From a bacterium HR40 (GTDB taxonomy: Bacteria; Pseudomonadota; Alphaproteobacteria; Geminicoccales; Geminicoccaceae), in assembly GCA_002898275.1 (NCBI GenBank), contig BEIQ01000003.1, positions 310,001 to 374,000 of the forward strand: a stretch of 64,000 nt of DNA, given 5' to 3'. The position numbers and the translations under genes were made by a program. Shown piece after piece: positions 26,863-29,991 of the stretch (the stretch's first letter is position 1; each line of letters begins with the position of its first letter). Under the pieces are notes generated by a model. That model saw only the letters and a program-made list of their open reading frames with translations, did not search any database and had not been told where the DNA came from.

Positions 26863-27375
26863 GTGACGACGCAGCCTCGTCCGTTTTGGTCACCGCTGGT
26901 GGCGGGTCTCGCCCTCGGTGGCGTGCTTCTCCTCACCTTCCTGGTCACCGGCCACGGACTGGGCGCGAGCGGCTTCTTCACCCGGCTCGCCGCCTGGCTC
27001 GCGGATCTGACCGTGCCCGGATGGGCGCGCAGCAACAGCTATTTCGCCCCGCTCTTCGTCGACCATCCGCTGGCGAGCTGGATCAGCTTCGAAATGGTCG
27101 GCGTCGTCGTGGGGGCGCTCGCGGGAGCCGCCTCGGCGGGACGGTTCCGCATCGGCATCGAGCGCGGAGCCGGTATCGGCGGCGGGGCCCGACTCCTGAA
27201 TGCGCTCTTTGGCGGCGTGCTGGTCGGTTTCGGAGCGCGCGTGGCTCAGGGCTGCACCAGCGGCATCGGACTTTCCGGCTCTGCCACGCTGGCCCTCGCC
27301 GGCTTCGTCTTCCTCCTCGGCTTCTTCGCCGCCGGATTCCTGGTGAGCGCGCTCGTGCGGAGGGCCTGGCAATGA
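26863..27375 (+). CDS. YeeE/YedE family transporter, first half (PmpA-like)
   Basis: 170 residues, GTG start at 26863. About four membrane segments separated by glycine-rich turns. Seen: the family motif RVAQGCTSGIGLSG with the conserved Cys that relays thiosulfate or another sulfur species through the YeeE fold. Proteins of this size pair with a second half, encoded directly downstream with an ATGA overlap; together they equal one full YeeE. The first membrane segment is followed by a periplasmic loop (TVPGWARSNSYFAPLFVDHP). The likely role is import of a sulfur compound across the inner membrane. Confidence 0.88.
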   Translation: MTTQPRPFWSPLVAGLALGGVLLLTFLVTGHGLGASGFFTRLAAWLADLTVPGWARSNSYFAPLFVDHPLASWISFEMVGVVVGALAGAASAGRFRIGIERGAGIGGGARLLNALFGGVLVGFGARVAQGCTSGIGLSGSATLALAGFVFLLGFFAAGFLVSALVRRAWQ

Positions 27376-28034
27376 CTCTTCCTCTCTACGACAGCGGCGC
27401 CTTCTCGGCGCTTTTCGTCGGCTTCCTGTTCGGCTGGGTGCTCGAGGGCGCTGGCTTTGGCAGTGCGCGCAAGCTCACCGGCCAGTTCCTGTTGCGCGAC
27501 TGGACGGTCTTCAAGGTGATGTTCACCGCTGTTCTGGTCGCCGCCTTCGGCCTGTGGCTGTTCGAGACCCTCGGATGGCTCGCTCCAGATGGGGTGTTCG
27601 TGTCGCAACTGCTGGTCGTCGGCACCGCCCTCGGCGGCCTGCTCATTGGCGCGGGCTTTGCCATCGGGGGCTACTGCCCGGGTACCTCTGCCGTGGGCCT
27701 CGCCTCCGGGCGGCTCGATGCCCTTTTCTTCATGATCGGCATGGTGATCGGCTCCGCCGTGTTCGCTGCCGTCTTCGACGTCATCGGTCCGGTCGTTTCG
27801 GCCGAGGCGCAGGTGAGCCCCACTTTGCCCGAGTTCTTCGGTGTGCCGGCCCTCGCCGTGATCCTGGCGCTCACCGCTGTGGCGGTGCTCGGCTGGCGGC
27901 TCGGCAGCCGGCTCGAGGCTCGCTTCGGCGGACCGCTGGGGGTGGAGCAGGTGTTGGCCGGCCTCGCCGAGGAGGGGTCCACCCGGCGCGGCGAGGCGGG
28001 CTTCGTCGAGCGCGCCGTGCATCCCGCCGAATGA
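27372..28034 (+). CDS. YeeE/YedE family transporter, second half (PmpB-like)
   Basis: 220 residues, beginning at the ATG of the ATGA overlap with the first half. Several hydrophobic segments, with the second family motif GGYCPGTSAVGLASGRLDALFF holding the pore Cys. The opening FLFGWVLEGAGFGSARKLTGQF is also characteristic. The C-terminal 45 residues after the last span are charged and probably cytoplasmic (RLGSRLEARFGGPLGVEQVL). It likely forms the functional sulfur-compound channel with its partner. Confidence 0.88.
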   Translation: MTLPLYDSGAFSALFVGFLFGWVLEGAGFGSARKLTGQFLLRDWTVFKVMFTAVLVAAFGLWLFETLGWLAPDGVFVSQLLVVGTALGGLLIGAGFAIGGYCPGTSAVGLASGRLDALFFMIGMVIGSAVFAAVFDVIGPVVSAEAQVSPTLPEFFGVPALAVILALTAVAVLGWRLGSRLEARFGGPLGVEQVLAGLAEEGSTRRGEAGFVERAVHPAE

Positions 28035-28089: not shown

Positions 28090-28887
28090 ATGCCGAAACT
28101 CCGCCACCTCGCGACGATGACGGCGCTGCCACTCGTCCTCGCGCTCACCTCCGGGCTCGAGCCCGAAGACCTGGCTTCGGGAGATTGGCTGCCGGTCGCG
28201 TTGGCCCAGGGCAATCCCTGCGCTCCCGCCAATCCTTGCGCGCCGCGGCGCCGCAATCCGTGCATGCCGGCCGCTGCCAACCCCTGTGCACCGACGGCCA
28301 AACGAGCGGCCGGCAGTCCTTGCGCCGCGGCTCAGCCTTCCGCTGCCACCGCGGCACCTCTGCCGCAGGCGCTGCCGGCCTCGGCGGCCCATCCCTTCGA
28401 CACGCTCCGGAATTGGCCCGAGGTGCCCTTCGGCGACGCGGTCGATTCCCGCATTCCCAACTATCATCGCGCGGCGCCGCACGTCGCGACCTCCGGCGCC
28501 GTGAAACCGGAAGATTATGTCTATGTCGCCTCGCTCGGATTCCGGACGGTGATCAACTTGCGCACCGACGAGGAGGGTGCGGCGGCCGAGGCGAAGGCGG
28601 CCGAAGCCGCGGGCCTCAAGGTCGTGCGCGTGCCGGTGGCGGGCAAGGCACCGGAACTCGCCCAAGTCGCCACCGTCATCCCGCTGCTCGAGGATCCCGC
28701 CAACTACCCGATCCTGCTGCTGTGCCATACCGCCAACCGCGCGGGGGCGATGTGGGCCCTCTACCGGGCGAGTCGCGGCGTCCCGGCCGAGATCGCGATC
28801 GAGGAGGGGCGAGCTGCCGGACTCAAGCCCAATCGCGAGGCGCGGGTGAGGGAACTTTTGGGCTTGCCCCCGCTCGCCGGCGGCTGA
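28090..28887 (+). CDS. Exported DUF442/dual-specificity-phosphatase-like protein with NPC repeats
   Basis: 265 residues. The N-terminus has a hydrophobic segment (residues 10-21) and a signal-like end at VALAQG. Residues 42-78 hold repeated cysteine triplets: NPC at 42, 48, 56 and 64 and SPC at 76, spaced by Ala/Pro residues. The C-terminal domain (about 120-250) matches the DUF442 / beta-lactamase-hydrolase phosphatase-like fold: SGAVKPEDYVYVASLGFRTVINLR, then LLCHTANRAG with Cys212 and Arg217. In sulfide-responsive BLH proteins this domain is fused to a persulfide dioxygenase and acts as a sulfurtransferase-like module; here it stands alone and is exported. It follows the YeeE pair by 55 bases. 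Confidence 0.78.
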   Translation: MPKLRHLATMTALPLVLALTSGLEPEDLASGDWLPVALAQGNPCAPANPCAPRRRNPCMPAAANPCAPTAKRAAGSPCAAAQPSAATAAPLPQALPASAAHPFDTLRNWPEVPFGDAVDSRIPNYHRAAPHVATSGAVKPEDYVYVASLGFRTVINLRTDEEGAAAEAKAAEAAGLKVVRVPVAGKAPELAQVATVIPLLEDPANYPILLLCHTANRAGAMWALYRASRGVPAEIAIEEGRAAGLKPNREARVRELLGLPPLAGG

Positions 28888-29013: not shown

Positions 29014-29991
29014 ATGTCTTCCCGAGTCCGTCGTCGGGATGCGATTCGCGCCGCTGTCGCGAGCGCCCTGCTGCCAGCCGCTTCCCTCCCGTTCGCCGCG
29101 GCGCGGGCCGCCGCACCCCTCAAGGGCCCGCTCCGCCCGCAGGCCTACCGTTTCCGCCTCGGCACCTTCGAGCTCACCGCCCTTTTCGACGGGATGGTCG
29201 CCATGGACGGGCCACATCCGATCTTCGGCGCCGACCAATCGCCGCAGGCGGTGGCTCGGTTGTGCGAGGAGAACTTCCTGCCGACGGGACGGCTGGCCAT
29301 CGGTTTCGCCCCTATCCTCGTGAACACTGGCCGGCAGCTCGTGCTCTTCGATGCCGGCAATCCGGCGAGCCGGCGCGAGGCAGGGGCCGGGTTCCTGGTC
29401 GACGCCCTCTCCGTTGCGGGCTATCGACCAGAGGAGATCGATCTCGTCGCCCTCACCCACTACCATCCGGACCACATCGGCGGTCTGGTGACCGACGGCC
29501 AACCCACTTTTCCCAACGCCGTCTATGCTAGCTCCGCCGTCGAACATGCCTTCTGGAGCGCCGAGGAGCGGCTGTCGGGGCCGAGCGAGGCGACGGCGCG
29601 GCTCGTGCGTACCAACGTGCTGCCGCTTGCCGACCGCCTCCGTCTCCTGCAGGACGGCGAGGAGTTGGTGCCCGGCATCCGCGCCCTCGCGACCCCCGGC
29701 CACACCCCCGGCCACATGGCATTCCACGTCGAGAGCGAAGGCCACAGGTTGTTGATCTGGGGCGATGTGGCCAACCATTTCGTGCTGTCGGTCGAGCGTC
29801 CGGAGTGGCACGTGCGCTTCGACCGGGACAAGGTCCAGGCGGCGGCCACGCGCAAGCGAGTGTTCGACATGGTGGCGACGGACCGCATCCCCGTCGCCGG
29901 TTACCACATGCCCTTCCCCAATCTCGGTTACGTGGAACGGCGTGGCGGCGACTACCGCTGGGTGCGAGCGAGCTACCAGTTCGACGTCTGA
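29014..29991 (+). CDS. Exported metallo-beta-lactamase-fold hydrolase
   Basis: 325 residues from the ATG at 29014 (GGGAG 8 bases upstream). The N-terminus (VRRRDAIRAAVASALLPAASLPFAAARAA) has a twin-arginine-like motif followed by a hydrophobic stretch, so Tat export to the periplasm is likely. The MBL metal motif THYHPDH is at 148-154 (His149, His151, Asp153, His154). Further His residues lie in ATPGHTPGHMAFH and GYHMPFPN, plus Asp in WGDVANH. The overall shape resembles the AttM/YtnP-like MBL group rather than ETHE1 persulfide dioxygenase. The substrate is unknown; linkage to sulfur chemistry is only by location. Confidence 0.82.
   Translation: MSSRVRRRDAIRAAVASALLPAASLPFAAARAAAPLKGPLRPQAYRFRLGTFELTALFDGMVAMDGPHPIFGADQSPQAVARLCEENFLPTGRLAIGFAPILVNTGRQLVLFDAGNPASRREAGAGFLVDALSVAGYRPEEIDLVALTHYHPDHIGGLVTDGQPTFPNAVYASSAVEHAFWSAEERLSGPSEATARLVRTNVLPLADRLRLLQDGEELVPGIRALATPGHTPGHMAFHVESEGHRLLIWGDVANHFVLSVERPEWHVRFDRDKVQAAATRKRVFDMVATDRIPVAGYHMPFPNLGYVERRGGDYRWVRASYQFDV

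Follow-up and report, generated by a model that had tools for sequence, protein, structure and literature searches.

The window, a 64-kb stretch of DNA, carries on its plus strand a gene (28090-28887) for a probably exported DUF442 protein with an array of NPC cysteine triplets, and this gene stands beside a pair of YeeE/YedE half-transporters. In our reading the product is an exported, PTP-fold, rhodanese-type sulfurtransferase that may serve this YeeE pair of PmpAB type and whose array would form a flexible arm with several thiols; we regard this reading as evenly poised between right and wrong. The strongest result of the analysis is the tie between NPC arrays and a second protein family, DUF6969 (PF22308).

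The gene starts with ATG, preceded by a AGGGGAGG-like ribosome site, and encodes 265 amino acids. Residues 1-39 (28090-28206, plus strand) form an apparent export signal; read by eye, a hydrophobic N-terminal stretch is followed by ALAQ directly before the array, with a probable cut between ALA and Q. The array itself (residues 42-78; 28213-28323, plus strand) consists of four NPC triplets and one SPC, with cysteines at residues 44, 50, 58, 66 and 78 and thus spacings of 6, 8, 8 and 12. It is disordered in the AlphaFold2 model (pLDDT <50). A linker separates it from the DUF442 (BLH_phosphatase) domain at residues 114-262 (28429-28875, plus strand), which is ordered in the same model (pLDDT ~95) and was delimited by profile match, alignment, AlphaFold2 model and structure comparison. 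The PF04273 BLH_phosphatase profile matches residues 129-227 (E 7e-12; 46.0 bits, above the cut-off of 26.1). The TIGR01244 sulfurtransferase profile gave 66.9 bits, under its cut-off of 85.85, so the protein is a divergent member. The Blh model scored 29.6 bits against a cut-off of 625, and the 265 residues include no MBL/ETHE1 domain. Cys212, in LCHTANRAG, is the sole cysteine outside the array among six in total. Open reading frame analysis and the PF04273 match therefore bear out the preliminary description, which had noted a signal-like N-terminus, four NPC and one SPC spaced 6-12 residues apart, and a DUF442 domain with LCHTANRAG.

The two genes upstream encode opposite halves of a PF04143 transporter. 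Half a (26863-27375, plus strand; 170 aa, PmpA-like) matches the C-terminal half of the profile (positions 176-309, E 1.9e-20) and has a single cysteine, Cys131 in QGCTSG. Half b (27372-28034, plus strand; 220 aa, PmpB-like) matches the N-terminal half (positions 4-148, E 2.7e-15) and also has one cysteine, Cys102 in GGYCPG. Both are short proteins with one conserved cysteine each, which places them with PmpA/PmpB-type pairs as defined previously (PMC11582611). The start of half b overlaps the stop of half a and the DUF442 gene begins 55 bases after half b, so the three genes are likely to form an operon. Downstream, an MBL-fold gene (29014-29991, plus strand) was weighed as a possible partner of ETHE1 type and rejected, as its best match was a lactonase model, below cut-off, and no match was found beside the orthologues. 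This gene is not conserved beside the operon, and the N-terminus of its lactonase-like product is twin-arginine-like. The genome has a second DUF442 gene (L002) without an array, and no YeeE/DUF442-operon neighbour was matched in the stretch read around it.

The window's family contributed orthologues from five genomes (L018-L022); beyond it, they occur in Thioclava, Marinobacter, Pseudidiomarina, one Hyphomicrobiales MAG and one Kiloniellaceae MAG. The array-DUF442 protein and the YeeE pair are also conserved together in two more alphaproteobacterial families. It had been proposed that the carrier idea would fail if close homologues lacked the repeats or a signal peptide; put to the test, the idea was not refuted. 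Among the 18 orthologues first found, the array is kept with 3-9 repeats in all except L011, and an export-type N-terminus, read by eye, is present in 18 of 18. The signal types differ, being Sec-type in alphaproteobacteria and a lipobox in Marinobacter and Pseudidiomarina (also read by eye), and the A-x-A/Q site directly before the array recurs as ARAQ or SRAQ in relatives, the lipobox occupying the same place. Export of the protein, as claimed from the first reading, is thus strengthened by sequence conservation. The suggested link to the YeeE pair has also held, since the pair adjoins the gene in all of these 18 but L012. L011 retains the YeeE pair and the DUF442 domain in swapped gene order and has no array, which therefore cannot be indispensable.

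A class-wide search of 385 genomes recovered six close domain relatives, all in DUF6969-positive genomes (chance 1.4e-4). Array and YeeE are both present in four of them: the window genome (G000), G016, G167 and G395. The G225 relative has lost the catalytic cysteine, the array and YeeE, and no YeeE was seen with that of G266. Side observations concern two DUF442 genes. A likely inactive paralogue (L162:1501-2133, minus strand) has its catalytic cysteine replaced by glycine (FHGVFANRAG) and is without array or YeeE, and a Roseomonas plasmid DUF442 gene (L218:4941-5471, plus strand; 'sulfur transferase domain-containing protein') lies directly after narGHJI.

The arrays belong to a wider class. 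At least three NPC in array were found in 23 of 40 DUF6969 loci (with flanks of ~7 kb, or less where a contig ends sooner), and no such array occurs in the reversed DNA of the same 40 loci or elsewhere in the 64-kb window. Because arrays of this size recur in true orthologues and are missing from both of these backgrounds, the array exceeds what chance would give. A census of the loci yielded 76 distinct array proteins, comprising 30 with the array only, 26 of P460 type (including four that the script had listed as other cytochrome c and that we read as P460-type), 19 with DUF442 and one other cytochrome c. A hydrophobic stretch precedes the array in 75 of the 76. In many array relatives the repeat reads CNPC, that is CxxC, a metallothionein-like cysteine spacing. 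The exported array proteins encoded at DUF6969 loci across Alphaproteobacteria (L118-L157, L066-L117) reach 34 NPC repeats, and a P460-type c-haem domain is present in many of them.

Presence of arrays followed DUF6969 closely. In alphaproteobacterial genomes the array query was positive in 17/30 and 22/40 DUF6969-positive genomes and in 0/30 and 0/40 DUF6969-negative ones, which gives 39/70 against 0/70 (Fisher p ~1e-15, ignoring kinship). With the negatives restricted to genomes of ~3 Mb or more, p was 9e-7, again ignoring kinship; many of the genomes compared come from different families. Direct reading revealed arrays in G109 and G365 that the query had missed, so the true share among DUF6969-positive genomes is higher. 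Arrays seem to need DUF6969, whereas DUF6969 does not need arrays. It occurs without them in Azospirillum, for example. Our prediction that the genome of the array-less L011 would be without DUF6969 failed, as two DUF6969 genes are present there.

DUF6969 is the next gene after array-DUF442 in Thioclava, Marinobacter and Pseudidiomarina. In the window's family it instead adjoins a gene whose exported product combines an array with a cytochrome P460 domain, and in the window genome it lies at G000:C3:8575-9180, ~329 kb from the operon and with no array neighbour. The Hyphomicrobiales MAG (L012) has it at a separate locus, next to a stand-alone array. Marinobacter carries a second DUF6969 gene, which adjoins an array on a cytochrome c; in this protein (L224:2225-3085, minus strand) the cytochrome c motif is flanked by NPC arrays on either side. 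With its export signal, at least three xPC repeats and a DUF6969 gene in the genome, the window protein falls into the NPC-array/DUF6969 set, a category defined in this analysis. DUF6969 proteins are His-rich, and a D-D-HxH-E-HxH-H set is invariant or near-invariant over 57 sequences. The model of the family is of fair confidence (pLDDT 83.8, pTM 0.86), and comparison with the PDB by sequence, Foldseek and VIA (best Z 2.6) gave no significant match, from which neither a new fold nor a lack of relatives follows.

Among 56 DUF6969 loci the common neighbouring families were FGE-sulfatase-like proteins (17), c-type cytochromes (13), DUF2336 (12) and exported rhodanese (6). The formylglycine-generating-enzyme-like (PF03781) neighbours include L133:7781-8650 (minus strand) and L086:950-1870 (plus strand). 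The exported rhodaneses have a C-terminal CxxC (L120:4285-4776, minus strand; L127:9974-10333, plus strand; L119, L121, L124 and L136), and in L120 and L127, alphaproteobacteria without the DUF442-YeeE operon, the array-P460 gene directly adjoins the rhodanese. The sulfur link is therefore seen again where YeeE is absent. The link to haem is as strong, so the cargo of the arrays may or may not be sulfur.

Several explanations compete for these observations. The DUF442 domain has the PTP/DSP fold (Foldseek E ~1e-7 and VIA-align on the predicted model; VIA-align Z 15.7 for 3gxh, 15.7 for Tk-PTP, 15.0 for NMA1982 and 13.2 for TpbA), and periplasmic dual-specificity phosphatases have precedent (PMC4409338), so that the protein could be such a phosphatase, like TpbA of Pseudomonas aeruginosa. 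We consider this unlikely in view of the active site. The loop C212-H-T-A-N-R217 (28723-28740, plus strand) is of CX4R type; its Cys, Asn and Arg do not vary among the 17 aligned orthologues, all of which have C-x-[ST]-[AS]-N-R, and the same six-residue loop, CX4R, is that of rhodaneses. The CX5R signature of TpbA and other PTPs is absent from the window protein and from the aligned orthologues, and CX4R is also found in 2f46 and 3gxg. Where the Asp of the 3gxg PVDW motif, a putative general acid, aligns, every orthologue has Ala, Gly, Pro, Ser or Thr, and in its operon the gene is accompanied by a sulfur transporter. For Blh, the DUF442 domain has been demonstrated to act as a thiosulfate sulfurtransferase, with an active site of rhodanese type (PMC5823870). 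Loop type, the missing Asp and this precedent favour sulfur transfer over phosphatase activity, short of proof. Given its homology to the Blh domain that was assayed, the domain here is most likely a sulfurtransferase, and the sulfurtransferase-type assignment made at the outset agrees with the PF04273 match and the CX4R loop.

The array admits other interpretations. It may be a periplasmic buffer for Cu(I), Zn or another soft metal, comparable to bufferins or metallothioneins, with DUF6969 handling the metal or modifying the cysteines before export and DUF442 only localising the array. The metallothionein-like CxxC spacing in many relatives, the existence of small stand-alone arrays, the many arrays on haem proteins, the frequent FGE-like neighbours and the conserved residue set of DUF6969 would all suit this possibility. 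The constant partner in the DUF442 operon is, however, a sulfur transporter and not a metal pump, and the neighbour families scanned, among those in at least six loci, are not metal-resistance genes; we find the metal buffer a possible though rather doubtful explanation. The array length in orthologues ranges from 0 to 9, as might be expected if the array were a functionless low-complexity tail arisen by chance and grown by slippage. This seems very improbable, since arrays persist in both Alpha- and Gammaproteobacteria, come after a signal-like hydrophobic stretch in nearly every case and were detected only in DUF6969-positive genomes.

The sulfur-transfer reading is supported by the conservation of the YeeE pair with array-DUF442, the invariant catalytic loop, the exported rhodanese at DUF6969 loci, the confinement of the window protein's cysteines to the array and Cys212, and the tracking of DUF6969 by arrays. 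Against it count the array-less L011, the dual-specificity phosphatase type of the fold, and the tendency that free thiols would have to form disulfides in the periplasm. Under the sulfur-transfer reading, Cys212 would accept sulfane sulfur in the periplasm, for instance from thiosulfate or polysulfide, and hand it on towards the YeeE pair, where the two conserved cysteines may line the import path, and the disordered N-terminal array would hold or relay cargo. The direction of flow is our inference. Persulfide is the first-choice cargo because of the company that the array keeps, and the relay of persulfide is likewise conjectural; the chief alternative cargo would be a soft metal such as Cu(I). 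The cytoplasmic DUF6969 probably acts on array proteins ahead of their export, by servicing or modifying them. As most arrays are on haem proteins or alone, the general role of arrays need not be sulfur transfer. We also put forward, tentatively and as somewhat short of an even chance, that exported NPC arrays, whether they stand by themselves or are joined to DUF442, cytochrome P460 or cytochrome c, form one undescribed system, that DUF6969 matures or modifies the arrays as a metal-dependent enzyme, and that the array protein of the window's branch is the missing periplasmic sulfur-presenting partner of YeeE.

How sulfur is presented to YeeE/SoxT-type importers on the periplasmic side is an open question, for which DsbA or SoxS has been proposed (PMC11582611). 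A conserved exported sulfurtransferase-type protein in a YeeE operon is a direct and testable candidate for this role, and Thioclava and Marinobacter are culturable. The strict co-occurrence of arrays with DUF6969 gives a starting point for functional work on an uncharacterised Pfam family and on an exported class with long NPC arrays, and it suggests a system for handling sulfur or metal that has yet to be described. In the literature searched, with most subscription journals outside its scope, nothing was found on DUF442 together with YeeE, DUF6969, NPC arrays, an array on DUF442, its conservation with YeeE or the array-DUF6969 tie. Exported DUF442, DUF442 beside YeeE, and half-YeeE pairs each already have precedents.

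Among known systems, bufferins and other MNIO-modified peptides, like metallothioneins, are exported or small, with regularly spaced cysteines and a dedicated companion gene. Their likeness to NPC arrays is an analogy only, and the companion of bufferins is an MNIO enzyme, whereas that of the arrays is DUF6969. TpbA shares the PTP/DSP fold and a periplasmic location and differs in its loop. 3gxg/3gxh and other stand-alone DUF442 proteins have the same fold, and several have an export-like N-terminus and a loop of HC-x-[ST]-[AGS]-N-R type; the earlier statement that DUF442 is usually cytoplasmic was therefore too strong. Unlike the window protein, they have no cysteine array, and among those examined a YeeE pair was seen only at L195, where it neighbours a DUF442 gene that lacks an obvious signal, in a different branch of the phylum. 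Blh, the DUF442-ETHE1 sulfurtransferase/dioxygenase of the bigR operon, has the DUF442 domain in common with the window protein, which is by comparison exported, stand-alone without the dioxygenase, provided with a cysteine array, and below the TIGR01244 and Blh cut-offs. The window pair resembles the PmpAB/YeeE/SoxT/TsuA transporters in matching the two PF04143 halves in the manner of PmpA and PmpB with one cysteine each. However, PmpA and PmpB are ~130 aa long compared with 170 and 220 aa here, and the known transporters are linked to YeeD/TusA or SoxS, whereas the window pair is linked to an exported sulfurtransferase-type protein.
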